Below are positions 4,649 through 20,051 of a DNA stretch of 64,000 bases, one piece after another (the first letter of the stretch is position 1; every line of letters begins with the position of its first letter). The notes beneath the pieces are model-generated. The model did no database searches and had not been told where the DNA came from. It saw only the letters and a list, made by a program, of their open reading frames with translations. The stretch covers positions 1-64,000 of the forward strand of contig NZ_VJOO01000004.1 in assembly GCF_007556755.1 (NCBI RefSeq), read 5' to 3'. The position numbers and the translations under genes are program-made. This DNA comes from Tepidimonas fonticaldi (lineage in GTDB: Bacteria > Pseudomonadota > Gammaproteobacteria > Burkholderiales > Burkholderiaceae_C).

Positions 4649-4652
4649 TCCT

Positions 4653-5075
4653 TCAGCCTCCGCACAGGGCGCGGATGTCCGCGGGGATCGGGATCGCCTT
4701 GATGCGGTCCGGGTCGTCGGGGTGGCGGATGCAGAAGGCGCGCGTCTCGCGCCCCTCGCACAGCACGTCGTCGCCGCGGCGCACCACGTGGTGCTGGATG
4801 AAGACTTTTTCCCGCCATTCTTCCACCCGCGTATACACCTGCAGGCGCTCGCCGTAGGTGGCGGGCTTGAGGAAGCGGGTGTGGATCTCCAGCAGCGGCG
4901 TGCCGATGATGCCGCGCGTCTTGACCAGCTCGCGCCAGGGCGGCACGCCGCACTGCACGAAGAAGTGCAGCGACGCCGCGTCCATCCACTTGCTGAAGTT
5001 GGGGAAGAAGACGATGCCGGCCGGGTCGCAGTCGCCGAACATCACCTCCACCTCGTAGACCGTGGTCTTGCTCAT
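4653..5075 (-). CDS. Acyl-CoA thioesterase of the 4-hydroxybenzoyl-CoA thioesterase family
   Basis: This encodes 140 residues as a single hot-dog domain. The active-site stretch MFGDCDPAGIVFFPNF carries the Asp and the D-x-x-x-x-G pattern of the Pseudomonas-type 4HBT family. I start it at the ATG at 5075 because GGAGG lies eight bases upstream; an upstream in-frame start at 5093 lacks this. In the operon it would release the aromatic acid (for example vanillate or 4-hydroxybenzoate) from the CoA ester formed by the thiolase next door. Substrate specificity is inferred from context only. Confidence 0.85.
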   Translation of the reverse strand: MSKTTVYEVEVMFGDCDPAGIVFFPNFSKWMDAASLHFFVQCGVPPWRELVKTRGIIGTPLLEIHTRFLKPATYGERLQVYTRVEEWREKVFIQHHVVRRGDDVLCEGRETRAFCIRHPDDPDRIKAIPIPADIRALCGG

Positions 5076-5096
5076 CCGCAGGGCCTCCGGCAAGGG

Positions 5097-5882
5097 TCAA
5101 CGCGGGGCCAGGCGCAGCGCGCCGTCCAGCCGGATCACCTCGCCATTGAGGTGGCCGTTGGTGACGATGTGGCAGGCCAGATCGGCAAACTCCTGGGGGC
5201 GGCCCAGCCGCGACGGGAACGGGATGCTGGCCGCCAGCGACTGCTGCACGGCCTCGGGCAAGGTGCGCATCAGCGGCGTGTCGAACAGCCCGGGCGCGAT
5301 GGTGCAGACCCGAATGCCATGCTGCGCCAGATCGCGCGCCATGGGCAGCGTCATGCCCACCACGCCGCCCTTGGACGCGCTGTAGGCCTGCTGGCCGACC
5401 TGGCCGTCGAAGGCCGCCACGGAGGCGGTGAATACCATCACGCCGCGCTCGCCATCCTCCAGCGGGGGCAGGGCGGCGCAGGCGGCGGCGAACAGGCGCG
5501 CGGCGTTGTAGGTGCCGATCAGGTTGACGCGCACGACGCGCTCGAAGTCCTCCAGCGGGGCGGGCTGGCCGTCTTTGCCGACGATGCGCCGCGCGGTGCC
5601 GATACCGGCCACGTGCATCAGGATGCGCGCCGGGCCGAGCGCGGCGGCGGCCTGGGCAAAGGCGTCGCGCAGGCCGTCGGCGCTGGCGACATCGGCAGCC
5701 AGCGCCAGTGCCGTGCCGGCGCCGTGGGCGGCGTTCAAGTCGGCGGCGACGCGCGCGGCGGCTTCGCCCGACAGGTCGATGACGGCCACGCGTGCGCCAC
5801 GGGCAGCCAGCTCGCGCGCCGTGGCCTCGCCAAGGCCGGAGCCGGCGCCGGTGACCAGGGCGGTTTGTCCATTCAGTTGCAT
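5097..5882 (-). CDS. Short-chain dehydrogenase, 3-hydroxyacyl-CoA dehydrogenase type
   Basis: This encodes 261 residues of the classical SDR fold. The nucleotide site is TGAGSGLGEATAR (about 11-23), the Asp after beta-2 in VAVIDLSGE favours NAD, and the catalytic Ser and YSASK Tyr/Lys are present (TASVAAF and [10 protein letters not shown]). The closest look is to type-II 3-hydroxyacyl-CoA dehydrogenases (HSD10-like), which oxidise 3-hydroxyacyl-CoA to 3-ketoacyl-CoA. A paralogue at 30494-31252 shares most of the C-terminal half. Placed between thiolase and thioesterase, it fits the third step of side-chain beta-oxidation. Confidence 0.88.
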   Translation of the reverse strand: MQLNGQTALVTGAGSGLGEATARELAARGARVAVIDLSGEAAARVAADLNAAHGAGTALALAADVASADGLRDAFAQAAAALGPARILMHVAGIGTARRIVGKDGQPAPLEDFERVVRVNLIGTYNAARLFAAACAALPPLEDGERGVMVFTASVAAFDGQVGQQAYSASKGGVVGMTLPMARDLAQHGIRVCTIAPGLFDTPLMRTLPEAVQQSLAASIPFPSRLGRPQEFADLACHIVTNGHLNGEVIRLDGALRLAPR

Positions 5883-5938
5883 CGGTGTCTCCTGGGGGCC
5901 GCGGGGAGGGCGGCCCAGCGTTGGGGGTGGGTGTTCGA

Positions 5939-7222
5939 TCAGGCGGCGGTCGGGGCATCGGGGTTTTCCAGCAGCAGCGCGATGCCCTGGCCGCCGCCGA
6001 TGCAGGCCGAGGCTACGCCGTAGCGCCCGCCGCAGGCGCGCAGCGCGCGCGCGCAGGTCAGCGTCAGCCGCACGCCGGTGGCCGCCAGCGGATGCCCCAG
6101 CGCGATGGCGCCGCCGTGCACGTTCAGGTGCGCCTCGTCCAGCCCCAGCTCGCGCGCCACGGCCAGCACCTGCGCGCCCTGCGCCTCGTTGATCTCGAAG
6201 CGGTCGATGGCGTCCAGCGTCAGCCCGGCGCGCTGCAGCAGCAGGCGGATCGCGGGTGCCGGGCCGATGCCCATGATCTCCGGCGGCACGCCGACCACCG
6301 CGGCGGCCGCCACGCGCGCCAGCGGCGCACGTCCGGTGCGCGTTTGCCAGTCGCGGGTGAACGCGCCACCCGCCACCACGGCGGCCGCCGCCGCATCCAC
6401 CAGCGCCGAGCTGTTGCCGGCCGTCTGCACCCCGCCCGGGTGCACCGGGCGCAGGCGCGCCAGCGCCTCCAGCGGCGAGGGGCGCGGGTGGGTGTCGGTG
6501 TCCACGCGCTCCACTTTCGGCGGCAGGCGCAGCGCCCGCGGCGCGTAGCCCTCGCGCTCGAAGGTGGTGGGGGTGACGGGCTCGATCTCGCCGGCCAAAA
6601 AGCCACTTGCCTGCGCCGCCAATGCCCGCTCGAACGAGCGCGCCGCATAGGCGTCCACCTCGGCGCGGGTGATGCCATAGCGGCGCGCCAGGTTCTCGGC
6701 CGTGCCGATCATGTCGACGCCGGCGGCCGGGTCCTTCAGCGCCTCCCACATGAAATCCTCGAACTTGACTGGGGCGCCGAGCTTGAAGCCGGTGCGGTGC
6801 TCGAAGGCGGCGATGGGGTTGCGCGTCATGCTCTCGGTCCCCGCCAGCAGCGCCACGTCGACGCCGTCGCGCAGGTGCAGCCCGGCCTGGCGGAACAGCT
6901 CGAAGCCGGTGCCGCAGATGCGCTGTACCATCAGCGCCGGCACGTCGATCGGCACGCCGGCGTACAGGCCGATGTGGCGCGGCAGCATGTACTGAAAGCT
7001 ATCGCCGGGGGCCATGTTGCCGGCCAGCACGGCGCCGACCGCCTCGGGCGCCACGGCGGCGCGCTGCAGCGCCGCGCGCGCGGCGTGGATGCCCAGGTCG
7101 GTGGGCGACAGGCTGCCGAAGGCGCCGCAGTAGTCCACCATCGGCGTGCGCGCGCCGTCCAAAATCCAGCAGTCGTCGAACAGGTTGAACAGGCCGCGCG
7201 GCTGGCGCAGGGGGTCGCTCAT
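5939..7222 (-). CDS. Thiolase (acetyl-CoA acyltransferase)
   Basis: This encodes 427 residues. The nucleophilic Cys is at about 103 in QRICGTGFE. The C-terminal half has INEAQGAQVLAV, the His of IALGHPLAATG and the second Cys in SACIGGGQG, so the catalytic set is complete. The enzyme cleaves 3-ketoacyl-CoA with CoA, releasing acetyl-CoA and a two-carbon-shorter acyl-CoA. Here that would convert aryl-3-oxopropanoyl-CoA to an aroyl-CoA. It is the third gene of the operon, downstream of the feruloyl-CoA synthase-like ligase. Confidence 0.9.
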   Translation of the reverse strand: MSDPLRQPRGLFNLFDDCWILDGARTPMVDYCGAFGSLSPTDLGIHAARAALQRAAVAPEAVGAVLAGNMAPGDSFQYMLPRHIGLYAGVPIDVPALMVQRICGTGFELFRQAGLHLRDGVDVALLAGTESMTRNPIAAFEHRTGFKLGAPVKFEDFMWEALKDPAAGVDMIGTAENLARRYGITRAEVDAYAARSFERALAAQASGFLAGEIEPVTPTTFEREGYAPRALRLPPKVERVDTDTHPRPSPLEALARLRPVHPGGVQTAGNSSALVDAAAAAVVAGGAFTRDWQTRTGRAPLARVAAAAVVGVPPEIMGIGPAPAIRLLLQRAGLTLDAIDRFEINEAQGAQVLAVARELGLDEAHLNVHGGAIALGHPLAATGVRLTLTCARALRACGGRYGVASACIGGGQGIALLLENPDAPTAA

Positions 7223-7257
7223 GGCAAGGTCCTCGTGGAGGGGGTGTCGGTCGGGGG

Positions 7258-9159
7258 CTAGACGGTGGGCTTGACGATGTGGCGCAGCGCATCGGCGTAC
7301 AGCTGCTCCACCGTCTCGGCGCGGTGGGTGAGCACCGCCCGTTGGTTGATCGAGCCTTTGTCGGTAATCTCGCCGCGGTCGATGGTGGGCGGATCGGCCA
7401 GCAGTACCAGCCGGGCGATGCGGTTGGCGCTGCCGGTGGCCTGCCGCGCCAGCTCGTCGACCACGCGCTGGAAGTGCGCCAGCACCGCCGGGTGTTCGAC
7501 TACGTCGTGCAGCGAGGCATCGGGCGGCAGCGGGCAGAGCTCGCGCACCCGGGGGGTGGGGAACACCAGCGCGCCCACCTCGTTGCGGTTCAGGCCCGTG
7601 ATCACCGCGTCCTGCACGTAGGGGGCGCCCGCTGCGATCAGGCGTGCGCGCAGCGGGCCGACGCTGACGAAGGTGCCGGTGGCGAGCTTGAAGTCCTCCG
7701 CGATGCGGCCGTCGAAGCGCAGCCCGCGGTGCACGTCGGTTTCGTCGATCCAGCGCACCGCGTCGCCGGAGCGGAAGAACCCTTCCTCGTCGAAGGCGGC
7801 CGCGGTCTCGTCGGGGTTGCGCCAGTAGCCGGGCGTGACGTTGGGGCCGCGGTAGCGCACCTCGGTCTTGCCCTCGATGTCCACCAGCTTCACTTCCAGG
7901 CCCGGGGTGGGGATGCCCAGGTCGCCCGCGCGCACATCCGGGCTGGTGACGAAGAGCGCAAACGGCCCCGACTCCGTCATGCCCAGGCCGGAGGTCATGA
8001 CGATGCGCTCGCCGGTCTCGCGCACCTCGCTCTCGTACAGGCTGTCCCAGATGGGTTGGGCCAGCGCCGCGCCGGCATAGAAGAACATGCGCACGCGCGA
8101 CAGCAGGGTGCGGCGCAAGGCGTCGTCGGTCTTCATCGCGTGGGCGATCGCCTCGAACCCGGTCGGCACGTTGAAATACACGGTCGGTGCGATCTCGCGC
8201 AGGTTGCGCAGCGTCTCGCCGATCAGCGCCGGGGTGGGTTTGCCGTCGTCGATGTAGAGCGTGCCGCCGTGGTAGAGCACCATGCCGAAGTTGTGGTTGC
8301 CGCCAAACGTGTGGTTCCACGGCAGCCAGTCCACCAGCACCAGGTCGCCTTCGGCCAGCACGGGCATGGACTGCGTCATTTGCTGCTGGTTGGCGCACCA
8401 CATGCGCTGGGTGTTGATGACGGCCTTGGGCGCTTTGGTCGAGCCGCTGGTGAACAAAAACTTGACGATGGTGTCCGGCCCCGTGGCGGCCATGGCGGCG
8501 TCCACGGCGTCGGTCGCAGGGGTGGACGCCAGCGCCGAGAACGACGTGGTGGGCCGATCGGGCAGCGCGCCTTCGGCCAGCACCGTCTCCACCTCGGTGG
8601 GCACCACGGCCTGGATGGCGCGGGCGTAGCGGGCATCTTGGGCGAACACCAGGCCCGGGGTGACCGTGCGCCAGACGTGGCGCAGCTTGTCGAAGTCGCT
8701 GCTGAGCAGCGCATAGGCCGGGGACGCCGGCACCCAGGGCACGCCCGCCACCAGACAGCCCAGCGCCAGCAGCGCGTGCTCCAGGCTGTTTTCGCTCAGA
8801 ATCAGCACGGGCCGCTCGGCGGACAGTCCCCGCGACAGCAGGCCCTGGGCAATCGCGCGCGCGGTCTGCCAGGCCTCGGCAAACGTGACGTGCTGCCAGT
8901 CGCCCAGCCCCGTCGTGCCGTCGGCGCGCACCTCGCGCCGGCGGCGGGCGAACAGCGTGCGTTGCGGCCGGGTGTGCGCCCAGTGCTGCAGGCGATCCGT
9001 CAGGCGGTCGGGGTAGGGTTGCAGCGCCTGCTCGGCACGCAGGTAATGGGTGCCGCGCTCGCCGTCGCGCACCTGCACGCGCGTCACGCCAAAGCGCAGC
9101 GGGCGAAACGGCGCCTGTGCGGCATCGGGCGGCCCCGGTGGAATGTCCATCGCGTTCAT
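7258..9159 (-). CDS. fcs: Feruloyl-CoA synthase-like acyl-CoA ligase
   Basis: This encodes 633 residues from the ATG at 9159. It is an AMP-forming ligase (ANL superfamily). The phosphate loop is KFLFTSGSTKAPKAV, followed by the INTQRMWCANQQQ stretch typical of bacterial feruloyl-CoA synthases. Later come TSGLGMTESGPFA, the ATP-binding YRGPNVTPGYWRNPDET and FDGRIAEDFKLATGTFV. It activates a hydroxycinnamic acid such as ferulate with ATP and CoA. Neighbouring crotonase, SDR, thiolase and thioesterase genes point to CoA-dependent side-chain oxidation. The exact hydroxycinnamate is not determined by sequence. Confidence 0.85.
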   Translation of the reverse strand: MNAMDIPPGPPDAAQAPFRPLRFGVTRVQVRDGERGTHYLRAEQALQPYPDRLTDRLQHWAHTRPQRTLFARRRREVRADGTTGLGDWQHVTFAEAWQTARAIAQGLLSRGLSAERPVLILSENSLEHALLALGCLVAGVPWVPASPAYALLSSDFDKLRHVWRTVTPGLVFAQDARYARAIQAVVPTEVETVLAEGALPDRPTTSFSALASTPATDAVDAAMAATGPDTIVKFLFTSGSTKAPKAVINTQRMWCANQQQMTQSMPVLAEGDLVLVDWLPWNHTFGGNHNFGMVLYHGGTLYIDDGKPTPALIGETLRNLREIAPTVYFNVPTGFEAIAHAMKTDDALRRTLLSRVRMFFYAGAALAQPIWDSLYESEVRETGERIVMTSGLGMTESGPFALFVTSPDVRAGDLGIPTPGLEVKLVDIEGKTEVRYRGPNVTPGYWRNPDETAAAFDEEGFFRSGDAVRWIDETDVHRGLRFDGRIAEDFKLATGTFVSVGPLRARLIAAGAPYVQDAVITGLNRNEVGALVFPTPRVRELCPLPPDASLHDVVEHPAVLAHFQRVVDELARQATGSANRIARLVLLADPPTIDRGEITDKGSINQRAVLTHRAETVEQLYADALRHIVKPTV

Positions 9160-9202
9160 GTCTCCTCGTCCTCTCTGGTCGTGCGTGTCGTGGGCGGCCG
9201 GC

Positions 9203-9991
9203 TCAGGCGTCTTTGCGCACTTTGGCGGCCTTGCCTTCCAGGAAGGCGCGCAGCCGGGCCTTGGCCTCCGGTGCCGCCTGGGCAATGGCGGAGATCAGCG
9301 CCTCGGTGAACAGGCCGTGGTCGCTGGCCTGCTCGGCAATGCGGGGCAGGGCGTGCATCAGCGCAAAGTTGGTCAGCGGGGCGTTCTCGGCGATGCGGCG
9401 GGCCAGCTCCAGCGCCTTGGGCAGCGCCTGGCCGGCCGGCACGCGGTACTGCGCCAGCCCGATGCGCTCGCCGGCCTCGGCGTCGTAGACCCGGCCGGTC
9501 AGCATCATCTCCATCATGCGCGGCACGCCGATCAGCTTGGGGATGCGCACCGAACCGCTGCCGCCCACGAAGATGCCGCGAGAGCCTTCGGGCAGGGCAA
9601 AGTACGCGCTGTCGTCCGCCACGCGTACATGGCAGGCGCTGGCCAGCTCCAGCCCGCCCCCGACCACGGCGCCATGCAGGGCCGCCACCACGGGCACGCG
9701 GCCCTTCTCGATGGCTTCCAGCGCCGTGTGCCACAGGCGGGAGTGCATCACGCCTTCCCCAGCATCGCGCTCGCGCAGTTCCGACAGATCCAGCCCGGCG
9801 CAGAAGTGCTCGCCCTCGCCGCAGATGACCGCGGCGCGCGCGGCCTCCGGCAGGGTTTCGAAGGTTTGGCGCAGCGCCAGGATCAGCCCATCCGACAGGG
9901 CATTGCGCTTGGCCGGGCGCCGCAACCGAACGATGGCGACGGCGCCGTCCAGGGTAACGTCGACGGCTTGGAGATCGGGGGTGGCATTCAT
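9203..9991 (-). CDS. Enoyl-CoA hydratase (crotonase), first gene of the phenylpropenoate operon
   Basis: This encodes 262 residues. The oxyanion-hole segments are HFCAGLDLSEL (about 62-72) and HGAVVGGGLELASA (about 106-119). Glu115 and Glu135 (in LPEGSRGI) match the two catalytic glutamates of hydratases. It lacks the specific features I associate with the hydroxycinnamoyl-CoA hydratase-lyase that yields an aldehyde, so plain hydration is favoured. It begins the minus-strand operon that runs to 3104. No ribosome-binding site precedes the ATG, and an AT-rich dyad ends two bases before it. Confidence 0.87.
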   Translation of the reverse strand: MNATPDLQAVDVTLDGAVAIVRLRRPAKRNALSDGLILALRQTFETLPEAARAAVICGEGEHFCAGLDLSELRERDAGEGVMHSRLWHTALEAIEKGRVPVVAALHGAVVGGGLELASACHVRVADDSAYFALPEGSRGIFVGGSGSVRIPKLIGVPRMMEMMLTGRVYDAEAGERIGLAQYRVPAGQALPKALELARRIAENAPLTNFALMHALPRIAEQASDHGLFTEALISAIAQAAPEAKARLRAFLEGKAAKVRKDA

Positions 9992-9993
9992 GA

Positions 9994-10018
9994 ATACAGT
10001 TACAAAAAATAACGATAT
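9994..10018. promoter_or_regulatory. AT-rich dyad, candidate MarR operator
   Basis: ATACAGTTA (9994-10002) and TAACGATAT (10010-10018) form an imperfect inverted repeat (seven of nine positions) around a seven-base A-rich centre. It lies just upstream of the crotonase start and within the 141-base divergent gap. The element stands out against GC-rich surroundings. MarR proteins bind dyads of this size, so the local MarR regulator is the natural candidate. Confidence 0.4.
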
Positions 10019-10132
10019 GGCGAATGTAGCGGTTTCACGCCCCGTTTCGGATCCGGGAAAACCCGCAGACGCCATCTCCCCGATCCCAGGGCCACCCGAA
10101 GAGCCCGAGCGGGAGCGGCATACTCCCGTGCC

Positions 10133-10912
10133 ATGCACGACGACGCTTCCAGCCCCTTCTATGCGGTCCATGACGGTGTGGCCACGATCACCCTCAACCG
10201 TCCGCGCCACCGCAATCGCCTGCACGACGAAGACTTGCGCGCGCTGGTGCGCCATGTCGAGTCGGCCAACCGCGACGCCTCGGTGCGGGTGCTCGTGCTC
10301 GGCGCGCGTGTGCTGCCGGATGCGCCGGTGTTCAGTGCCGGTTTCCACCTGGGCGGATTCGGGGCGGATGCCGGGGCGGCCGTCGATGCCTTTGCCCATG
10401 CAGCCGACGCGCTGGCCCGGGCGCGCCCGGTCACGGTCGCGGCCTTGGCCGGCAGTGTCTATGGCGGGGCCACCGACCTGGCCTTGGCGTGCGACTTTCG
10501 CATCGGTGTCCAGGGGATGGAGCTGCGCATGCCCGCAGCCGCGCTGGGCCTGCACTACTACCCCAGCGGCATGCGCCGCTGCGTGGCCACGCTGGGGTTG
10601 TCGGCGGCGCGCCGGCTGTTCCTGTTCGCGGAACCGCTGGGCGCGGCCGAACTGCTGGCGCTGGGCTATCTGGATGAGTTGGTCGAGCCCGCCGACTTGG
10701 ACGCCGCCGTGCGCCGCCGGTGCGCGCAGGTGCTGGCCCTGGCACCGCTGGCCGTCCAGGGCATGAAACAGACACTGCACGACATCGCCCTGGGGGAGCG
10801 CCGCCCGGACGATTGGCGCGCGCGCGAGGTGGCGACCCACGCCAGCCGCGACTTCGCCGAAGGCCGAGCGGCGTTTGCCGAGCGCCGCCCCGCCCGCTTC
10901 GAGGGCCGTTGA
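10133..10912 (+). CDS. Crotonase-fold protein lacking both catalytic glutamates
   Basis: This encodes 259 residues. The N-terminus VATITLNRPRHRN and the loops FSAGFHLGGFG and GSVYGGATDLALACDF identify the enoyl-CoA hydratase/isomerase superfamily. At the positions of the two hydratase glutamates it has Asp (GGATDLA) and Ala (RMPAAALGL), so ordinary hydration is unlikely. Isomerase, thioesterase or lyase chemistry within the same fold is possible. It is transcribed divergently from the operon crotonase and converges on the IclR gene. Confidence 0.82.
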   Translation: MHDDASSPFYAVHDGVATITLNRPRHRNRLHDEDLRALVRHVESANRDASVRVLVLGARVLPDAPVFSAGFHLGGFGADAGAAVDAFAHAADALARARPVTVAALAGSVYGGATDLALACDFRIGVQGMELRMPAAALGLHYYPSGMRRCVATLGLSAARRLFLFAEPLGAAELLALGYLDELVEPADLDAAVRRRCAQVLALAPLAVQGMKQTLHDIALGERRPDDWRAREVATHASRDFAEGRAAFAERRPARFEGR

Positions 10913-10925
10913 TCCCGCGCGACGG

Positions 10926-11804
10926 TCACAGACCGCCAATGGCCCCCAGCCGTTGCGACAGCCGTTCGGCGGCGGTGCGCAGGGCGTGGGCTTGGGTGCT
11001 GCCGGGGCTCAGGTCGAGCAGGGCACTGGGGCCGATGGCGGCAATCGCCAGGGCCAGGCGGCCAAAGCCGTCGAACACCGGCACCGCCATCGCGCTGATG
11101 CCGGGCAGCAGCTCGTCGCGCACGCGGCTCAGGCGCTCGCGTCGGATGGCGTCCAGCTCGGCCACGAAGGCCGGATCCTGCAGGGCGTGCGTTTCGCCCT
11201 CGCGCGCCAGGGCCTCGGTCACCGCCGCGGGGGGCGCAAAGGCGGCAAAGATTTTGCCCGTGCCCGTGTGGCGCAGCGACGCCGGAGTGCCGTGGCGCAT
11301 GGCCACGTGCACAGCCGTGGGGCCGTGCTCCACATGCACGATGATGGGGCCCACCGGCCCCCACACCGCGGCCGACACCGTGCAACCCACCGCTTGCGCC
11401 AGCGCAGGCAGCTCGGCCACCGCCAGCCGCACCGGGTCCACCTGCTGCAGCCCGATCAGCCCCAGCTGCAACGCCAACGGCCCCAGGCCGTAGTGACCAC
11501 TGACCGGGTCTTGCTCGATCAGGCCGATCTTGCCAAAGCTCACCAGATAGGGGTGCGCCTTGGCCGCGGCCATGCCCGCGGCGCGCGCCAAGTCCTTCAG
11601 CGGCAGGGCCGAGCCGCTGCGCACCAGCGCCTTGAGCAACTGCCCCCCCACCTCCACGCTCTGAATGCCGCGTGATCCGCGCGACTCGGCCTCGTCGCCC
11701 AGACCGCCGTCCGTCGCCAGGGAGGGTTGCCGTGCTGGATTCATGTCCATCATTGTCGGGCCGCCGCTCGGGTCGTGCGGGCGCACCGGCGTCAGGGTTT
11801 TCAC
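10926..11804 (-). CDS. IclR-family transcriptional regulator
   Basis: This encodes 292 residues, with other in-frame Met starts within the first 25 codons. A winged helix at about 45-105 (RGIQSVEVGGQLLKALVRSG, then LKDLARAAGMAAAKAHPYL) precedes an IclR effector domain. The effector domain includes RHTGTGKIFAAFAPP and ISAMAVPVFDGFG. IclR proteins regulate catabolic genes, often those for aromatic acids. The gene is divergent from the operon starting at 11917, which is its probable target, and it shares a 112-base intergenic region with it. Confidence 0.88.
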   Translation of the reverse strand: MKTLTPVRPHDPSGGPTMMDMNPARQPSLATDGGLGDEAESRGSRGIQSVEVGGQLLKALVRSGSALPLKDLARAAGMAAAKAHPYLVSFGKIGLIEQDPVSGHYGLGPLALQLGLIGLQQVDPVRLAVAELPALAQAVGCTVSAAVWGPVGPIIVHVEHGPTAVHVAMRHGTPASLRHTGTGKIFAAFAPPAAVTEALAREGETHALQDPAFVAELDAIRRERLSRVRDELLPGISAMAVPVFDGFGRLALAIAAIGPSALLDLSPGSTQAHALRTAAERLSQRLGAIGGL

Positions 11805-11916: not shown

Positions 11917-12873
11917 ATGAGCACCAAAGCCTTTGCCAGCCAGGCCGACCTGCAGGACAAGCAGGTCAGCTTCACGAAGCTGTCCGACCACGCCTACGCC
12001 TACACCGCCGAGGGCGACCCCAACACCGGCGTCATCATCGGCGACGACGCCGTGATGGTGATCGACACCCAGGCCACCCCGGCGATGGCGCAGGACGTGA
12101 TCCGCCGCATCCGCGAGGTCACCGACAAGCCGATCAAGTACGTGGTGCTGTCGCACTATCACGCGGTGCGCGTCCTGGGCGCCTCGGCCTACCAGCCGGA
12201 GCACATCATCGCCAGCCAGGACACCTACGACCTCATCGTCGAGCGCGGCGAGCAGGACAAGGCCAGCGAGATCGGCCGCTTCCCGCGTCTCTTCCGTGCG
12301 GTCGAGTCGGTGCCGCCCGGCCTGACCTGGCCGACCATCACCTTCACCGGCAAGATGACGATCTGGCTGGGCAAGCTGGAAGTGCAATTGCTGCAACTGG
12401 GCCGCGGCCACACCAAGGGCGACACGGTGGCCTGGCTGCCCCAGCAGAAGATCCTGTTCTCCGGCGACCTGGTCGAGTTCGACGCCACGCCCTATGCCGG
12501 GGATGCCTACTTCAAGGACTGGCCGCAGACGCTGGACAACATCGCCGCGCTCCGGCCCGAGAAGCTCGTGCCCGGCCGCGGTGCAGCGCTGCAAACGCCC
12601 GAGGAAGTGCAGGCGGGCCTGGCCGGCACCAAGGCGTTCATCTCCGACGTGTACGCCTGCGTCCAGGAAGGGGTGAAGGCCGGCAAGGACCTCAAGACGG
12701 TCTACAAGGACACCTACGCGCGGCTGCAGCCGAAGTACGGCCACTGGGTCATCTTCGACCACTGCATGCCGTTCGACGTGACGCGCTGCTACGACGAGGC
12801 CACGCAATACCCCGACCCGCGGGTGTGGACCGCCGAGCGCGACCGCCAGATGTGGGAAACCCTGGAAGGCTGA
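11917..12873 (+). CDS. MBL-fold protein with altered metal-binding motif
   Basis: This encodes 318 residues with the metallo-beta-lactamase fold. It has GVIIGDDAVMVIDTQA near the N-terminus, VVLSHYHAVRVLGAS where the first metal motif belongs, GRGHTKGDTVAWLP and ILFSGDLVEFDATP. The usual H-x-H-x-D-H reads H-Y-H-A-V-R, so an Asp and a His ligand are replaced, while the later His and Asp are kept. I recall this variant in related proteins, so it may be a family trait. It is the first gene of the operon; a lactonase, thioesterase or quinone-related role is conceivable but unproven. Confidence 0.8.
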   Translation: MSTKAFASQADLQDKQVSFTKLSDHAYAYTAEGDPNTGVIIGDDAVMVIDTQATPAMAQDVIRRIREVTDKPIKYVVLSHYHAVRVLGASAYQPEHIIASQDTYDLIVERGEQDKASEIGRFPRLFRAVESVPPGLTWPTITFTGKMTIWLGKLEVQLLQLGRGHTKGDTVAWLPQQKILFSGDLVEFDATPYAGDAYFKDWPQTLDNIAALRPEKLVPGRGAALQTPEEVQAGLAGTKAFISDVYACVQEGVKAGKDLKTVYKDTYARLQPKYGHWVIFDHCMPFDVTRCYDEATQYPDPRVWTAERDRQMWETLEG

Positions 12874-12901
12874 TCCCGCACCACCTCAGAGGAGACAGAT
12901 C

Positions 12902-13444
12902 ATGAAGATCGAACGCATCCATCACGTCGCCTACCGCTGCAAGGACGCCAAGGAAACGGTCGAGTGGTACGTGAAGCACCTGAACATGAACTTCGTCCTG
13001 GCGATCGCCGAGGACCAGGTGCCGTCCACCAAGGCGCCCGATCCCTACATGCACGTGTTCCTGGACGCCGGCCAGGGCAACGTGCTTGCCTTCTTCGAGC
13101 TGCCCAACTCGCCGGCCATGGGCCGTGACGAGAACACGCCCGAATGGGTCCAGCACATCGCGTTCAAGGTGGACAGCGTGGAGACGCTCGAGGCCACGAA
13201 GGCGCGCCTGGAGGCGGCCGGCATCCCCGTCGTTGGCGTGACGGACCACACCATCTTCAAGAGCATCTACTTCTTCGACCCGAACGGCCACCGCGTGGAA
13301 CTGGCGGCCGATGTCGGCACGCCCGACATGTACGAGAAGCTCGATGCGGTCAAGTGGGACATGCTCAACGAGTGGGCCCAGACCAAGCGCGCGCCGAAGC
13401 ACGCCGCCTGGATGCACGAGAAGGAATTCCACGCGCTCGACTGA
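12902..13444 (+). CDS. VOC-superfamily protein (glyoxalase/extradiol dioxygenase fold)
   Basis: This encodes 180 residues, one pair of VOC modules. Metal-ligand candidates are His8 in RIHHVAYRC, His in WVQHIAFKV and Glu in GHRVELAADVG, the His-His-Glu pattern of type-I extradiol dioxygenases and some glyoxalases. AGGAGACAGATC precedes the ATG. Its position just before a flavin hydroxylase and fumarylacetoacetase makes ring cleavage or a later isomerisation plausible. Single-module family members are diverse, so the reaction is left open. Confidence 0.8.
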   Translation: MKIERIHHVAYRCKDAKETVEWYVKHLNMNFVLAIAEDQVPSTKAPDPYMHVFLDAGQGNVLAFFELPNSPAMGRDENTPEWVQHIAFKVDSVETLEATKARLEAAGIPVVGVTDHTIFKSIYFFDPNGHRVELAADVGTPDMYEKLDAVKWDMLNEWAQTKRAPKHAAWMHEKEFHALD

Positions 13445-13527
13445 GCCGCCCGATTTCCGCGTGACAGTGACCCGTCGGCCGCTTCGCCAGCGGCTTGGGC
13501 TGGTTTCGCCCTGACGAACCCTTGACC

Positions 13528-15147
13528 ATGTTGCACACCTACACCTATCCCAAGTACGAGTATCGGCAGAGCGACGAACAGCGCAGCGGCGAGCGTGTGC
13601 GCCACCCCGTGATGGTGATCGGCGCCGGCCCCGTCGGCATGACCCAGGCCTTGGACTGCGCGGCCCGTGGCATTCCCACCGTGGTGCTGGACGACAACAA
13701 CACCGTGAGCATCGGCTCGCGAGCCGTCTGCTACGCCAAGCGCCCGCTGGAGATCTGGGATCGCCTGGGCCTGGGTGACGATCTGGTGGCCCAGGGGGTG
13801 CAATGGAAGGTGGGGAAGGTGTTCTTCCGCGACGAGCTGGTCTACCAGTTCGACCTGCTGCCCGAAGACCACCACAAGATGCCGGCGATGATCAACCTCC
13901 AGCAGTACTACCTGGAGGAGCGGCTGGTGCGCGCGTGCGACGAGTCACCGCTGGTGGACCTGCGCTGGAAGCACAAGGTGCTGGCGATCGAGACGCACGA
14001 CGACCACGTGGTGCTGACGATCGAGACGCCCGACGGCATCTTCAAGACCGAGGCGTCGTGGCTGATCGCCTGCGACGGCGCCAGCAGCGACACGCGCCGC
14101 ATGATCGGCGCGGACTTCACCGGCCAGTTCTTCCAGGACCGCTTCCTCATCGCTGACGTGGTGATGAAGGCCGACTTCCCGACCGAGCGCTGGTTCTGGT
14201 TCGACCCGCCCTTCCACCGCAACCAGAGCGTGCTGCTGCACAAGCAGTGCGACAACGTCTGGCGCATCGACTTCCAGCTCGGCTGGGATGCCGACCCCAA
14301 CGAGGAGAAGAAGCCCGAGAAGGTCATCCCCCGCATCCAGGCGATGCTGGGGCCGGACGTGCCGTTCGAGCTGGAGTGGGTGTCGGTGTACCAGTTCGCG
14401 TGCCGGCGCATCGACCGCTTCCGCCACGGCCGCGTGATCTTCGCCGGCGATGCGGCGCACCAGGTCTCGCCCTTCGGCGCGCGCGGGGCCAACAGCGGCG
14501 TGCAGGACTGCGACAACCTGAGCTGGAAGCTCAAGGCGGTGCTGGACGGCGACGCGCCCGAGGCCCTGCTGGATACCTACCACGACGAGCGCGCGTTCGC
14601 CGCCGACGACAACCTGCTCAACTCCACGCGCTCGACGGACTTCATCACGCCCAAGAGCCGCACCTCGCTGCGCCTGCGCAATGCGGTGCTGGAGCTGGCG
14701 CGCACCGAGCCGTTCGCGCGCCCGCTGGTCAACAGCGGGCGGCTGTCGACGCCGACGCCCTATGTGCACTCGCCGCTCAACACCCCCGATGCCGAGACCG
14801 CCGAGCCGTTCGCTGGCCGCATGACCCCTGGCACCAACTGCGCCGATGCCCCGGTCGAGGTGAACGGCCAGCCGGGCTGGCTGCTCAACCAACTGGGCCG
14901 CGGCTTCGTGCTGCTGAGTTTTGGCCCGGCCGAGCCGGTGCGCCTCGGCGGCGTCGAGGCCCAGGTTCTGCAGGTCGGGCGCGACCTGATCGACCGCGCC
15001 GGCGTGCTCACCCAACGCTACGATGGTCAGCCGGGCACGGTGTACCTGATCCGCCCCGATCAGTACGTCGCGGCCCGCTGGCGCCGCTTCGACCGCGCCG
15101 CGGCCGAGGCCGCGCTGGCGCGGGCGCTGGGCCATGCCCTCGCTTGA
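13528..15147 (+). CDS. FAD-dependent aromatic hydroxylase, MhaA-like (3-hydroxyphenylacetate 6-hydroxylase type)
   Basis: This encodes 539 residues from the ATG at 13528. The FAD ADP-binding motif VIGAGPVGMTQALDCA is at about 30-45, the middle DG motif is WLIACDGASSDTRR, and the ribose-binding motif is GRVIFAGDAAHQVSPFGARG. These define class-A flavin monooxygenases. The C-terminal thioredoxin-like domain is as in MhpA-type enzymes. Length, the small DUF2783 gene next to it and the fumarylacetoacetase downstream match the two-part MhaAB hydroxylase described in Pseudomonas putida U, which makes homogentisate from 3-hydroxyphenylacetate. Another hydroxyaromatic acid is possible. Confidence 0.8.
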   Translation: MLHTYTYPKYEYRQSDEQRSGERVRHPVMVIGAGPVGMTQALDCAARGIPTVVLDDNNTVSIGSRAVCYAKRPLEIWDRLGLGDDLVAQGVQWKVGKVFFRDELVYQFDLLPEDHHKMPAMINLQQYYLEERLVRACDESPLVDLRWKHKVLAIETHDDHVVLTIETPDGIFKTEASWLIACDGASSDTRRMIGADFTGQFFQDRFLIADVVMKADFPTERWFWFDPPFHRNQSVLLHKQCDNVWRIDFQLGWDADPNEEKKPEKVIPRIQAMLGPDVPFELEWVSVYQFACRRIDRFRHGRVIFAGDAAHQVSPFGARGANSGVQDCDNLSWKLKAVLDGDAPEALLDTYHDERAFAADDNLLNSTRSTDFITPKSRTSLRLRNAVLELARTEPFARPLVNSGRLSTPTPYVHSPLNTPDAETAEPFAGRMTPGTNCADAPVEVNGQPGWLLNQLGRGFVLLSFGPAEPVRLGGVEAQVLQVGRDLIDRAGVLTQRYDGQPGTVYLIRPDQYVAARWRRFDRAAAEAALARALGHALA

Positions 15148-15187
15148 TGCCATTTTCCGCGACGCCCCCGTGCCCCGGAGACCTGTC

Positions 15188-15394
15188 ATGCCTTTGAACC
15201 GTCAACCCCACATCGCCGAGCCCGACGCCTTTTACGAGGAACTGATCCACGCCCAGCGCGACCTCCAGGACGAGCAGGCGGAGATGTTCTTGGCCAAGCT
15301 CGTGCTGATCCTGGCCAACCACGTCGGCGACCGCGCCGTGCTGTCCGAGGCGATCGCGCTGGCCCGCGCCAACACCCTCGCGACGGCCGGCTGA
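15188..15394 (+). CDS. DUF2783 small protein, possible coupling partner of the flavin hydroxylase
   Basis: This encodes 68 residues, starting at the ATG at 15188 where GGAG lies nine bases upstream. It is acidic and mostly helical (DAFYEELIHAQRDLQDEQ, then AEMFLAKLVLILANHVGD), with no signal peptide. I recognise it as a DUF2783 protein. These are repeatedly found beside flavin hydroxylases, and the P. putida MhaB coupling protein is of similar size. It would act by binding the hydroxylase and improving coupling of NADH oxidation to substrate hydroxylation; this is inferred from context. Confidence 0.75.
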   Translation: MPLNRQPHIAEPDAFYEELIHAQRDLQDEQAEMFLAKLVLILANHVGDRAVLSEAIALARANTLATAG

Positions 15395-15451
15395 ACGCCA
15401 CCCCGGCCGGATACCTTCGAGCGCGATACCCCGCCCACACCCTTGCCGCCC

Positions 15452-16768
15452 ATGTCCTTGCTCAACGAAACCCACGACCCCGCCCTGCGCAGCTGGGTGG
15501 ACGGTGCCAACCGCCCGGGTCACGACTTTCCCATCCAGAACCTGCCGTTTGCCAGCTTTCGCCGACGCGATCGCGGCGAATCCTGGCGCGGCGGGGTGGC
15601 GATCGGCGACGCCATCGTCGATCTGGCGGCGCTGCACCGGGCCCACCCGTTCGAGGGTCTGGCCGCCGAGGCGCTGGCTGCGGCGGCACAGCCGCAGCTC
15701 AATGCGCTGATGGCCTTGGGGCCGGCCCACTGGAGCGCGCTGCGGCTGGCCCTGTCGCGGGCGCTGCGCGAGGGCAGCCCCCAGCGCACCGTCATCGAGC
15801 CCTGTCTGGTGCCGCAGGCCGAGGCCGAGTACGGCCTGCCGGCGCGCATCGGCGACTACACCGATTTCTACACCTCGGTTCACCACGCCACCAACATCGG
15901 CCGCCAGTTCCGGCCCGACAACCCGCTGCTGCCCAACTACAAATGGGTGCCCATCGGCTACCACGGCCGCAGCTCCAGCATCGGGGTGTCGCCGCAGGCC
16001 TTTTACCGGCCGCGCGGGCAGGTCAAGGCGCCGGACGCCGATGCCCCCACCCTCGCGCCCAGCCGGCGGCTGGACATCGAATTGGAACTGGGCGTCTTCG
16101 TCGGGCCCGGCAACGCGCTGGGTGACGCGATCCCCGTGGCCGAGGCCGAGGCGCATGTGTTCGGCATCGTGCTGCTCAACGACTGGTCGGCGCGCGACAT
16201 CCAGGCCTGGGAATACCAGCCGCTCGGGCCGTTCCTGGCCAAGAACTTTGCCACCACGATCTCGCCCTGGGTCGTGACGCTGGAGGCGCTGGCCCCGTAC
16301 CGCGTCCCCTTCGAGCGGCCGGCCACCGACCCCCAGCCGTTGCCGTATCTGGACGATCCGGCCAACCGCGCGCAGGGGGCGTTCGACATCCGCCTGTCGA
16401 TCGGCTGGCAGACGCCGCGCATGCGCGAGCAGGGGATGGCCGACCACGTGGTGGCGCAGACCAGCTACCGCCACGCCTATTGGACCGTGGCGCAGATGGT
16501 GGCCCACCACACGGTCAATGGCTGCAATCTGCAGCCGGGGGATTTGCTGGGCACCGGCACGCTCTCCGGCCCGACGCTGGAGCAGGCGGCGGCTTTCATT
16601 GAGCTCACGCTCGGTGGCAAACAGCCCCTGAGCCTGCCCGGTGGCGAGCAGCGCACCTTTCTGGAGGACGGCGACACGGTCGTGCTGCGCGGCTGGTGCG
16701 AGGCGCCGGGGGCGGCGCGCATCGGCTTTGGCGAGTGCCGCGGTACCGTGCTGCCCGCCCGCGGCTGA
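15452..16768 (+). CDS. fahA: Fumarylacetoacetase
   Basis: This encodes 438 residues, the full length of the eukaryotic-type enzyme. An N-terminal SH3-like domain is followed by the catalytic domain. That domain has GDYTDFYTSVHHATNIG (metal Asp and catalytic His), ELELGVFVG (E-x-E metal ligands), LLNDWSARDIQAWEYQPLG and TVNGCNLQPGDLLGTGTLSG. It hydrolyses fumarylacetoacetate to fumarate and acetoacetate, the last step of the homogentisate pathway. That anchors the operon to homogentisate or a close analogue. Maleylacetoacetate isomerase and homogentisate dioxygenase are not seen in this window. Confidence 0.92.
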   Translation: MSLLNETHDPALRSWVDGANRPGHDFPIQNLPFASFRRRDRGESWRGGVAIGDAIVDLAALHRAHPFEGLAAEALAAAAQPQLNALMALGPAHWSALRLALSRALREGSPQRTVIEPCLVPQAEAEYGLPARIGDYTDFYTSVHHATNIGRQFRPDNPLLPNYKWVPIGYHGRSSSIGVSPQAFYRPRGQVKAPDADAPTLAPSRRLDIELELGVFVGPGNALGDAIPVAEAEAHVFGIVLLNDWSARDIQAWEYQPLGPFLAKNFATTISPWVVTLEALAPYRVPFERPATDPQPLPYLDDPANRAQGAFDIRLSIGWQTPRMREQGMADHVVAQTSYRHAYWTVAQMVAHHTVNGCNLQPGDLLGTGTLSGPTLEQAAAFIELTLGGKQPLSLPGGEQRTFLEDGDTVVLRGWCEAPGAARIGFGECRGTVLPARG

Positions 16769-17062
16769 TGATGGGCCCCCACCCCGAGGACCGGCCGCCG
16801 GGCCATGGCGTGCCGTTGAACCGGGTATTGCGTTTTGCTATAGCAGTTTGTTTGCCATGGCAGTTTTGCAGGCTAACGGCACGCACTACAGTTCATGCGC
16901 ACGACCGTCGGGCCGACGGTTCCGGGCGCCTAGGGCAAACCCCTGGGTTTGAAATCGGCACGCCGATTGATTCATTGTAATAATCGTCAGTGTGCTGTTT
17001 ATTTTCGGCATATCCACCCTCGCGCGGCCACCCGCGCCATCGCAATCCGCAGGAGACATGAC
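16769..17062. promoter_or_regulatory. Regulatory region upstream of the TRAP transporter with several symmetric repeats
   Basis: No gene is seen here. The stretch holds two tandem 17-18-base elements of form GTTT(T)GC-NNNN-GCAGTTT (16832-16849 and 16850-16866). A long inverted repeat encloses them (GCGTGCCGTT 16808-16817 with AACGGCACGC 16875-16884). There is also a 17-base perfect palindrome at 16904-16920 (ACCGTCGG/CCGACGGT) and a 16-base perfect palindrome at 16953-16968 (AATCGGC/GCCGATT). The AT content rises toward 16970-17010, where the transporter promoter should lie. These are likely operators; one may be the fahA terminator. Confidence 0.5.
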
Positions 17063-18106
17063 ATGAAAACCCCCTGGTCGCTTCGTGCACTGACCGTCGC
17101 CCTCGGTGGCGCGGTGTTGGCCGGTGCCGCGTGGGCACAGCAGGTGACGCTGCGCGTGCACCACTTTCTGCCCGCGCAGGCCAACGTGCCGCGCCTGGCC
17201 ATCGAGCCGTGGGCCAAAAAGATCGAGGCCGAGTCCGGCGGCCGCATCAAAGTGCAGATCTTCCCGGCCATGCAGATGGGCGGCACGCCGGCGCAGTTGT
17301 TCGACCAGGCGCGCGACGGCGTGGCCGATGTGACCTGGACGGTGCTGGGCTACACCCCCGGCCGTTTCCCGAAGATGGAGGTGTTCGAGCTGCCCTTCAT
17401 CACCCCGAACAGCGACCGCGCCGGCGAAATCACCTCGCGAGCGGCCTGGGAGTTCGCGCAACGCTTTGCGGCCGACGAGTTCAAGGACGTCAAGCTGATT
17501 GCGGTGCACACCCACGGCCCGGGCCTATTCCACACCAAGCAGCCCGTCACGGGGCTGGAGAGCGTGCGCGGCATGAAAATCCGCGGTGGCACGCGCATCG
17601 TCAACAACATGCTCACCAAGCTGGGCGCCACGCCCGTGGGCATGCCCGTGCCGCAGGTCACCGAGGCGCTGTCCAAGGGCGTGATCGACGGCACCACCAT
17701 TCCCTGGGAGGTGGGCCCGTCCCTGCGCGTGCACGAGATGGTGAAGAACCACACCACCTTCGCCGGCGACAAGGCGCTCTACAACATGGCCTTTGCGTTT
17801 TCGATGAACAAGGCCAAGTACGAGTCGCTGCCGCCCGATCTCAAGAAGGTCATCGACGACAACGCCGGGGCGGAGACGTCGGCCTTCTTTGGCAAGGCCA
17901 TGGACCAGGGTGACAAGAGCGGCCGGGAAATCGCCACCAAGGCCGGCAACAAGATCACCCAGCTCGAGCTGGCCGAGACCCAGCGCTGGCTGCGCATCGC
18001 AGGCAGCGTGGAGGACGACTGGGTCAAAGAGGTTCGAGCCAAGGGCATCGACGGCGCCCAGCTGGCGAGCGAGGCGCGGGCCCTGCTGGCCAAGTACGCC
18101 AAGTAA
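17063..18106 (+). CDS. dctP: TRAP transporter substrate-binding protein (DctP family)
   Basis: This encodes 347 residues with a cleavable signal peptide ending AGAAWAQQ (cut near 26). The DctP fold is seen in VTLRVHHFLPAQANVPR, GGRIKVQIFPAMQMGG and the ligand-anchoring Arg region VRGMKIRGGTRIVNNML. AGGAGA precedes the start. The protein binds its ligand in the periplasm and delivers it to the two membrane subunits encoded next. Downstream of an aromatic catabolic operon, the ligand is probably an aromatic or other organic acid; the sequence alone does not say. Confidence 0.9.
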   Translation: MKTPWSLRALTVALGGAVLAGAAWAQQVTLRVHHFLPAQANVPRLAIEPWAKKIEAESGGRIKVQIFPAMQMGGTPAQLFDQARDGVADVTWTVLGYTPGRFPKMEVFELPFITPNSDRAGEITSRAAWEFAQRFAADEFKDVKLIAVHTHGPGLFHTKQPVTGLESVRGMKIRGGTRIVNNMLTKLGATPVGMPVPQVTEALSKGVIDGTTIPWEVGPSLRVHEMVKNHTTFAGDKALYNMAFAFSMNKAKYESLPPDLKKVIDDNAGAETSAFFGKAMDQGDKSGREIATKAGNKITQLELAETQRWLRIAGSVEDDWVKEVRAKGIDGAQLASEARALLAKYAK

Positions 18107-18205
18107 ACTGTCGTGCAGTGGGCGCATGCATGGCGATTCGCCATGCGCGTTTGGCTGCCGGTGGCGCCCCGGTCCCGGGGGCGCTCCACAAACGAGTACA
18201 TCATT

Positions 18206-18727
18206 ATGACGACTTGGGTATTTCGACTCGCTCAAGGGTCGGCCATCGTGGGCGGCGTGGTGCTGTGCGCCATCACGCTCATGAGCGTGACCAGCATCAC
18301 CGGCCGGGCGCTCTCCGGCGTGGGGCTCGGACCGGTGCCGGGCGATTTCGAGCTGGTGGAGGTCGGCACCGGCGTGGCGGTGTTTTTGTTCCTGCCGTGG
18401 ACCTATCTGCGCGGCGGGCACGCGACCGTGGACCTGCTCTACAACCACCTGTCGGCCTTTTTGCAAAAGACGGTCTCGATGGTGTGCGATGTTTTGATGC
18501 TGGTCTTGTGGCTGGCACTGACCTGGAAGCTGTGGGACGGCATGCTCGAAAAGCGCGAGTACCTGGAGACCACCTTCATCCTGCAAATGCCGGTGTGGTG
18601 GGCCTATGCCGCGTGTTTCGTGGGCGCGGTCATCGGCTGCCTGGCCTACGTCACCAAGACGTTGATCAATCTCGGACTGGCGCGCTATCCCGAGGGTTGG
18701 CCGGTCGAATCCGCGGGGGTGCATTGA
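18206..18727 (+). CDS. dctQ: TRAP transporter small permease (DctQ)
   Basis: This encodes 173 residues from the ATG at 18206; an upstream in-frame extension lacks membrane character. Four hydrophobic helices are visible: GGVVLCAITLMSV, GTGVAVFLFLPWTYL, VLMLVLWLALTWKL and AYAACFVGAVIGCLAY. DctQ forms the Na+-coupled transporter with DctM and docks the binding protein. The stop is one base before the dctM start. Confidence 0.87.
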   Translation: MTTWVFRLAQGSAIVGGVVLCAITLMSVTSITGRALSGVGLGPVPGDFELVEVGTGVAVFLFLPWTYLRGGHATVDLLYNHLSAFLQKTVSMVCDVLMLVLWLALTWKLWDGMLEKREYLETTFILQMPVWWAYAACFVGAVIGCLAYVTKTLINLGLARYPEGWPVESAGVH

Positions 18728-18728
18728 G

Positions 18729-20051
18729 ATGACGGGAATCGAACTGGCCGCGTGGTCGTTTCCGGTCCTGCTGGCGCTGATCTTCATTCGCGTGCCCATC
18801 GGGCTGGCCATGGCCGTGTGCGGTCTGGTCGGGGCGTACCTGGTGTACGGCACCCCGGTGCCGCTGCTCAATCAGCTCAAGCAGGTGACGTTCACCACCT
18901 TTTCCAACTACAACCTGTCGGTGATCCCGCTCTTCCTGCTGATGGGGCAGTTTGCGGCGCTCGGGGGGCTGTCGCGGTCGCTGTTCAAGGCGGCGGAGGC
19001 CTGGATCGGCCACTACGAGGGCGGCGTCGCCATGGCCGCCGTCGGGGCATGCGCGGGCTTTGGGGCCATTTGCGGCTCCTCGCTGGCCACGGCGGCCACG
19101 ATGGGGCAGGTGGCCTTGCCCGAGCTGCGGCGGGCCGGCTATTCCGGCGCCCTGTCCACGGCTTGTCTGGCCGCGGGCGGCACGCTCGGCATCCTCATTC
19201 CGCCGTCAGTGGTGCTGGTCATTTACGCCATCCTGACCGAGCAGAACATCGCCAAGCTGTTTCTCGCGGCGTTCGTGCCGGGCATTCTGGCCGCCGTCGG
19301 CTACATCATCGTGATTTCGATTTATGTGCGCCTCAAGCCCGACAGCGCCGGGCGCATGGCGCCCGTGCCCATGGCCGAGCGCTGGAAAGCCCTGGGCAGC
19401 ACCTGGCCGGTGATCGTCATCTTCCTGTCCGTCGTGGGCGGGATTTACACCGGCCTCTTCACCCCGACCGAAGGGGCCGCGGTCGGCGCCTTCGGCACCG
19501 GGTTGGCGGCGTGGCTGGCGGGCGGGCTCAATGCCAAGACGCTGCGCGAGGCCATCTACGGCACCGCCATCGCCACGGGCATGATTTTCATGATCGTGCT
19601 GGGCGCGGGGCTGTACAACACCTTCTTGGCGCTGTCGCAACTGCCGCAGGAACTGGCCCAATGGGTCATCGGCCAGGGCCTGAGCCCGTGGCTGGTGCTC
19701 ACCCTGATTCTGGTGATTTACCTGCTGCTGGGCTGCGTCATGGATTCGCTGTCCATGATTTTGCTCACCATCCCGATCTTCTTCCCGATGATCATGGGGT
19801 TGGACTTCGGCATGACGCCGGAGGAAACCGCCATCTGGTTCGGCATCCTGGTCCTGATCGTGGTGGAAGTCGGTCTGATCACCCCGCCGGTGGGGATGAA
19901 CCTGTTCGTCATCAACAACATGGCGCGCAGCGTGCCGATCGTGCAGACCTACCGCGGGGTCACGCCGTTCGTCATCAGCGATCTGGTGCGCACGGCCATC
20001 CTGGCAGCCTTCCCCAGCATCACCCTGTTTGCGCTGTGGATGACGTCGTGA
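18729..20051 (+). CDS. dctM: TRAP transporter large permease (DctM)
   Basis: This encodes 440 residues with 11-12 hydrophobic segments. Family motifs include the start IRVPIGLAMAVCGLVGAY, the GSSLATAATMGQVALPELRR region, GGTLGILIPPSVVLVIYA and LITPPVGMNLFVINN. This subunit carries out Na+-driven transport of the ligand. Its stop codon overlaps the GTG of the following chimeric reading frame. Confidence 0.92.
   Translation: MTGIELAAWSFPVLLALIFIRVPIGLAMAVCGLVGAYLVYGTPVPLLNQLKQVTFTTFSNYNLSVIPLFLLMGQFAALGGLSRSLFKAAEAWIGHYEGGVAMAAVGACAGFGAICGSSLATAATMGQVALPELRRAGYSGALSTACLAAGGTLGILIPPSVVLVIYAILTEQNIAKLFLAAFVPGILAAVGYIIVISIYVRLKPDSAGRMAPVPMAERWKALGSTWPVIVIFLSVVGGIYTGLFTPTEGAAVGAFGTGLAAWLAGGLNAKTLREAIYGTAIATGMIFMIVLGAGLYNTFLALSQLPQELAQWVIGQGLSPWLVLTLILVIYLLLGCVMDSLSMILLTIPIFFPMIMGLDFGMTPEETAIWFGILVLIVVEVGLITPPVGMNLFVINNMARSVPIVQTYRGVTPFVISDLVRTAILAAFPSITLFALWMTS

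Follow-up and report, generated by a model that had tools for sequence, protein, structure and literature searches.

A VOC-fold protein as the probable homogentisate 1,2-dioxygenase of a Tepidimonas fonticaldi operon in which no HmgA was found

Which enzyme opens the aromatic ring in an operon that appears to make and degrade homogentisate but holds no gene for HmgA, the cupin-type homogentisate dioxygenase? The question is raised by a gene run in Tepidimonas fonticaldi, within a stretch of 64,000 nucleotides (contig NZ_VJOO01000004.1 of assembly GCF_007556755.1, positions 1 to 64,000; the whole stretch is called the window here). A preliminary description, made from the letters of the window, had placed five genes in the run, for an MBL-fold protein, a VOC-fold protein, an MhaA-like hydroxylase, a DUF2783 small protein and a true fumarylacetoacetase (FAH), and profile matches confirm all five in place and strand (Table 1). 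It had further proposed that the VOC protein either cleaves the ring or isomerises the cleavage product. Our results lead us to conclude that the VOC protein is very probably a homogentisate 1,2-dioxygenase, predicted from its sequence to carry out the ring opening of the operon in place of HmgA. We read it as a ring cleaver and not as an isomerase because of its identity to a structure deposited under that name, its extradiol-type residues, the gene clusters that have HPPD, FAH, VOC and maleylacetoacetate isomerase (MaiA) genes and no HmgA, and the exchange of hmgA for the VOC gene between related gene sets; taken together these support ring cleavage well.

The structure in question, PDB 9u42, is titled 'Homogentisate 1,2-Dioxygenase from Acinetobacter' and was released on 2025-07-23. 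It has the VOC fold (its chain is named 'Glyoxalase') and is 66-67% identical to the window protein over nearly its full length, and the window protein is orthologous to this type of enzyme in sequence and fold. When the window protein is aligned with 57 relatives (58 rows in all), H8, H116, Y123 and E133 are kept in every row and H85 in 57, and 9u42 has the same letters at this His/His/Tyr/Glu set; the residues of the His-His-Glu metal set that had been proposed for the protein are thus conserved. The PS00082 pattern, in the form used here, fits 57 of the 58 rows, the window protein included, and matches nowhere else when the window is translated in six frames (127,996 residues). Type I extradiol dioxygenases, such as catechol 2,3-dioxygenase and L-DOPA dioxygenase, share the fold, the aligned His, His, Tyr and Glu and the fit to PS00082, but the VOC protein has 180 residues and one glyoxalase domain, and its predicted substrate is a para- and not an ortho-diol. 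LinE and PcpA are parallels for para-diol cleavage.

The genome supplies the steps that surround ring opening. It is rated 100% complete (88 contigs, 3.0 Mb), and HmgA has no match in the operon or elsewhere in it (PF04209; TIGR01015 at E ≤ 1e-60), which upholds the earlier statement that the operon has no cupin-type hmgA. MaiA is encoded outside the operon, on contig C1 (155172-155837; 258 bits, cut-off 171), and HPPD, whose product is homogentisate, on contig C38 (8827-9870; 386 bits, cut-off 277). There is one VOC gene at E ≤ 0.001 and one FAH gene at E ≤ 1e-60, in both cases the window copy, and the full-length FAH exceeds the cut-off of the TIGR01266 equivalog model (526 bits, cut-off 375). 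The genome is predicted to make homogentisate, the other steps are present, no HmgA was found, and the VOC gene lies beside the sole FAH gene. The preliminary description was right that the operon has no maleylacetoacetate isomerase; of the two genes that it wished to see searched for, and whose joint presence elsewhere it took to tell against its idea, maiA is there and hmgA was not found.

Relatives of the VOC gene keep similar company. We took 80 named VOC loci, the best 80 of 538 relatives and therefore a set that leans to close kin; the nearest named among them are from Tepidimonas (90-94% identity). Within at most 10 kb on each side of the VOC gene, some contigs being short, these loci hold a hydroxylase-like gene in 66 cases, DUF2783 in 57, FAH in 35, MBL in 24, HmgA in 7 and HPPD in 4. 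HPPD stands directly before VOC in L072, L080, L081 and L086; in seven MhaA-VOC-FAH loci the hydroxylase match is only 34-36% identical and may be another flavoprotein. Of 90 plasmid records that contain a VOC relative we examined 13, mostly picked for their annotation and with genes checked by tblastn, and HmgA was found in none of these 13 stretches. The gene orders include hppD-VOC-fahA in Ideonella dechloratans, HPPD-VOC-FAH in Novosphingobium humi, MBL-hydroxylase-DUF2783-transport-VOC-fahA in Sphaerotilus, VOC-MFS-short FAH-maiA in Enterobacter JBIWA005, VOC-fahA in Paraburkholderia (VOC 50% identity), VOC-maiA in Sphingomonas paeninsulae (VOC 45% identity) and MBL-VOC-hydroxylase in Acidovorax T1. 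Two Acinetobacter plasmids have fahA-maiA-VOC, followed in one by CoA-transferase and thiolase; 9u42 comes from another lineage than the window protein, and the window operon differs in having MBL, MhaA-like hydroxylase, DUF2783 and TRAP genes. The window operon and several of its relatives therefore place a VOC gene next to genes that make homogentisate or use fumarylacetoacetate, with no hmgA. Among 370 genomes sampled from the class, 12 have a VOC gene at 1e-25, the source genome included. In 6 of the 8 that lie outside the order (62-77% identity), HPPD, FAH or short FAH, and VOC occur together, with MaiA too in 4; in one of the remaining two a hydroxylase and an MBL are all that lies near the VOC gene, and in the other none of the genes sought was found. 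HmgA was found in none of these 8 and in 1 of 11 VOC genomes tested from the class sample, where the VOC protein is only 41% identical.

The matches of the VOC protein are all to glyoxalase- or extradiol-type models, and the best general ones are glyoxalase models, with weak matches to FosA/FosB and catechol 2,3-dioxygenase. The protein could on that account be an accessory glyoxalase- or FosA-like detoxifier, for instance of benzoquinone acetate or aldehydes, but it is the only ring-opening candidate seen in the clusters that are complete but for HmgA, and the title of 9u42 points the other way; we hold such a role to be extremely improbable.

The exchange of one enzyme for the other is seen in closely related gene sets. 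Four alphaproteobacterial plasmid stretches of about 15 kb each (4 of 52 plasmid records with MBL, mostly picked for annotation) have hmgA but no VOC gene, in company with MBL, hydroxylase, DUF2783 and either FAH or short FAH; maiA is in view in three of the four, and in the Peteryoungia stretch the hydroxylase is in two pieces. DUF2783 adjoins the hydroxylase in several plasmid loci, VOC-type and hmgA-type alike. HmgA is absent from 13 of the 20 named loci in which MBL, VOC, hydroxylase, DUF2783 and FAH all occur. These stretches and loci show that gene sets closely akin to one another carry HmgA, VOC or both, and the loci holding both are possibly an intermediate stage of enzyme replacement. 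In a tree of MBL and VOC from 22 loci the HmgA label needs 4 changes; only 2 are forced by starred branches, and counts as low arose in 25-32 of 500 shuffles, so that repeated loss of HmgA is suggestive only.

Counts across genomes agree in part. From the 80 loci we took 50 genomes, picked for long contigs or isolates: HmgA is absent in 40, MaiA is over its cut-off in all 50, and FAH is matched in 39, by a fragment in one case. In a sample of 399 genomes from the order, counted at fixed E-value limits (1e-60), VOC occurs in 48, HmgA in 72 and FAH in 75; partial FAH matches below cut-off in G016 (of the 50) and G706 (of the order sample) are counted as FAH. The 75 FAH genomes have HmgA only in 39 cases, VOC only in 16, both in 8 and neither in 12 (odds ratio 0.15, p 0.0007, uncorrected for kinship). 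The genomes with no FAH have VOC in 24, HmgA in 25, both in 0 and neither in 275. Where HmgA is absent, FAH accompanies VOC in 16 of 40 genomes, as against 12 of 287 with no VOC (odds ratio 15, likewise uncorrected), and in 13 of those 16 the VOC gene lies at most 5 kb from FAH. An exclusion of VOC and HmgA across genomes at large was considered and rejected over all 399; it appears only among the 75 with FAH.

Several observations weigh against a homogentisate dioxygenase that replaces HmgA. Seven of the 20 fuller loci hold VOC and HmgA together (L012, L042, L052, L062, L069, L073, L085), in six of them as one run, MBL-VOC-MhaA-DUF2783-HmgA-FAH, and in L085 with VOC as part of a second hydroxylase set alongside. 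HmgA is present in 10 of the 50 VOC genomes, which implies that the two are redundant there or that the VOC substrate is somewhat different; over the 399 genomes the two enzymes are independent (8 with both, 8.7 expected, Fisher p 1.0). FAH is absent from 11 of the 50 VOC genomes and 24 of the 48 in the order sample, and in many of these, for example several Limnohabitans, no more than an MhaA-like gene and DUF2783 precedes VOC. Since 25 of the 72 HmgA genomes likewise have no FAH match, its absence is not special to VOC genomes; a short FAH-family enzyme may serve where FAH is missing, as in L011, L129 and L130, although a search of the loci, as opposed to the whole genomes, found none in the 11 FAH-less genomes. 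The function of 9u42 rests on its depositor's title, and the structure was solved with Zn. The presence of MaiA, moreover, argues only weakly against isomerisation by VOC because MaiA may be common for other reasons.

The loci with both enzymes, the VOC genomes with no FAH, and the distant VOC relatives (39-52% identity) that often stand beside alpha/beta hydrolases would suit a ring-cleaving dioxygenase whose substrate is another para-hydroquinone, such as a substituted homogentisate, and whose main task is not that of HmgA. We regard this as unlikely, in view of the 66-67% identity to a protein whose deposited title is homogentisate dioxygenase, the adjacency of HPPD and VOC in several lineages, and an operon FAH that is full length and over its equivalog cut-off.

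The glyoxalase fold and the lack of maiA in the operon also bear on the second activity of the preliminary description, isomerisation of the cleavage product. VOC would then act on maleylacetoacetate much as glyoxalase I-like enzymes rearrange adducts of glutathione, and the ring would be opened by something else; in the six single runs listed above, isomerisation is indeed the sole step with no usual gene. However, MaiA is encoded in the source genome and in all 50 VOC genomes, VOC and maiA occur together in stretches with no hmgA, no other ring cleaver was seen in these hmgA-free clusters, and the extradiol His/Tyr pair is conserved. The VOC protein does not belong to the MaiA-type (GST zeta) family. 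On the presence of MaiA, the hmgA-free VOC-maiA stretches and the conserved pair we reject isomerisation, which we judge very unlikely, and return to ring cleavage.

From the gene content we infer a substrate, a metal, catalytic roles, regulation and transport, as follows. The run from MBL to TRAP is taken as one operon because its spacing is tight: 28 bases separate MBL from VOC, and the hydroxylase and DUF2783 reading frames overlap. The TRAP importer, presumed to serve aromatic-acid uptake, would bring in hydroxyphenylacetate, which the MhaA-like flavoprotein and DUF2783 protein would hydroxylate to homogentisate. The flavoprotein matches NF006002, a model with the generic name 'FAD-dependent oxidoreductase' (842 bits, cut-off 416); an FAD flavoprotein and a small partner thus stand beside homogentisate-pathway genes as in MhaAB, and by domain match and context we predict an MhaAB-type 3-hydroxyphenylacetate 6-hydroxylase. 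The VOC protein, its Fe(II) or like metal held by H8, H85 and E133, would use H116 and Y123 for catalysis and cleave the ring beside the carboxymethyl substituent, yielding maleylacetoacetate. MaiA would isomerise this product, and FAH would split the resulting fumarylacetoacetate into fumarate and acetoacetate. The HPPD encoded elsewhere may feed tyrosine into the same VOC step. The divergent IclR protein, with 112 bases between its reading frame and that of MBL, probably regulates the run.

The same predicted step is carried out by HmgA (cupin, TIGR01015, PF04209), encoded in the sister gene set of the four Alphaproteobacteria, but the two are unrelated in family and fold, and HmgA has about 440-450 residues. 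The mhaAB-hmgABC genes of Pseudomonas putida U and Burkholderia xenovorans LB400 similarly have a two-component 3-hydroxyphenylacetate 6-hydroxylase that feeds homogentisate, as described in the part of PMC3053370 consulted; there, however, ring opening is the work of HmgA and hmgC lies in the cluster, whereas here the VOC protein would act and maiA lies elsewhere. The same part reports that MhaAB makes homogentisate in P. putida U and that HmgR is an IclR-type regulator divergent from hmgABC, the type and orientation of the window regulator. Among the open-licence papers listed by our searches, none names a VOC-fold homogentisate dioxygenase. In the portion of PMC9007349 available, 'homogentisate' occurs 0 times; a table row in that of PMC5319971 lists ABZJ_03802 of A. 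baumannii as 'putative homogentisate 1,2-dioxygenase' with its fold not told, which adds nothing firm; and the portion of PMC8449657 states that A. radioresistens DSM 6976 grows on 2-hydroxyphenylacetate, a source of homogentisate in the model strain of that paper.

The preliminary description spoke of a new variant of a textbook pathway. Since 9u42 has been deposited, this kind of enzyme is already known, and the novelty of the enzyme falls away; a pathway variant with probable ring cleavage by a VOC protein stands. We found no description of the window gene set around VOC, and our additions are the breadth of its occurrence and the loci that hold both enzymes. The case is one of non-orthologous replacement at the level of the fold, in a pathway of the textbooks; sister loci carry either enzyme alone or the two together, and the proposal is directly testable. 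Pathway annotation that looks for HmgA would score the homogentisate route as interrupted in bacteria carrying VOC but not HmgA, as 16 of 75 FAH genomes in the even sample of the order do. Annotated plasmid records name the relatives 'VOC family protein'; among the 120 homologues listed, most that carry a name are called glyoxalase-like or VOC, and the name 'putative ring-cleaving dioxygenase MhqA' is given to two.

The MBL protein is unusual, as had been noted. It keeps H80-x-H82, H165 and D184, has V84 and R85 where x-D-H is usual, so lacking the second-metal Asp-His, and has R221 in place of the His of PGHG. The classical di-zinc motif (HxHxDH, with the last His of PGHG) is replaced by HYHAVR and PGRG in the rows compared, conservation having been checked in 32 rows, one of them the window copy again, and in 24 rows. 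Its best structural match is 8d2z of Burkholderia cenocepacia, where no function is named. The protein accompanies the hydroxylase and DUF2783 module in HmgA and VOC gene sets alike, and our guess is a lactone or ester hydrolase tied to that module. MBL relatives from Alphaproteobacteria also have the HYHAVR/PGRG motif.

A broader reading has, in our estimation, about an even chance of being right. Two unrelated homogentisate cleavers of comparable standing would exist in the order; the VOC type, also found in Gamma- and Alphaproteobacteria, would take over from HmgA step by step inside a single operon, passing from hmgA alone through both genes to VOC alone, with the window as the end state; many proteins now labelled 'VOC family' or glyoxalase would in fact cleave homogentisate; and one more step of the hydroxyphenylacetate branch, as yet undescribed, would fall to the linked MBL protein, whose metal site is altered.

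Table 1. Features of the window, with predicted roles where given
Feature	Position	Strand	Evidence or remark
Acyl-CoA dehydrogenase	3104-4648	-	
AMP-ligase	7258-9285	-	
Enoyl-CoA hydratase match	within 9203-10939	-	
Second enoyl-CoA hydratase match	10133-10912	+	
IclR-family regulator	10926-11804	-	PF01614 8.9e-13, PF09339 3.1e-9
MBL-fold protein	11917-12873	+	PF00753
VOC-fold protein, 180 aa, predicted homogentisate 1,2-dioxygenase standing in for HmgA	12902-13444	+	PF00903 6.8e-20
H8 codon, predicted metal ligand	12923-12925	+	58/58 rows; ligand role suggested by the VOC fold
H85 codon, predicted metal ligand	13154-13156	+	57/58 rows; aligns with His of catechol 2,3-dioxygenase 5zsz
Extradiol-type signature, residues 114-133: H116 (predicted acid/base), Y123, E133 (predicted metal ligand)	13241-13300	+	PS00082 fit; aligns with 5zsz
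MhaA-like FAD hydroxylase	13528-15147 (ATG; TTG at 13495 also open)	+	NF006002, PF01494
DUF2783 small protein, putative MhaB-like hydroxylase partner	15134-15394	+	PF10932 2.5e-26
Fumarylacetoacetase (FAH), full length	15443-16768 (ATG at 15452)	+	TIGR01266
TRAP transporter (16949-20051), DctP	16949-18106	+	PF03480
TRAP transporter, DctQ	18113-18727	+	PF04290
TRAP transporter, DctM	18729-20051	+	PF06808

The acyl-CoA genes upstream (3104-10939) do not obviously belong to a homogentisate-type pathway. Among the more distant VOC relatives (39-52% identity), those on plasmids of Cupriavidus N-1, Diaphorobacter, Variovorax and Neorhizobium stand with alpha/beta hydrolases and no FAH; such hydrolases adjoin VOC in L109 (5965-9518, Variovorax PBL-E5), L093, L108 and L110, which suggests a related ring-cleavage pathway ending in a different hydrolase, and in L109 a flavoprotein and DUF2783 are also near. 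A VOC relative of 63% identity in genome G172 (L121 / L132) has an in-frame TAG and none of the pathway genes of the query set nearby, and is possibly a decayed copy. On the Acidovorax sp. T1 plasmid p2-T1 (L088), a conjugative IncP plasmid, MBL, VOC and hydroxylase lie beside phosphonate (phn) and chromate genes, so that this module can be plasmid-borne.

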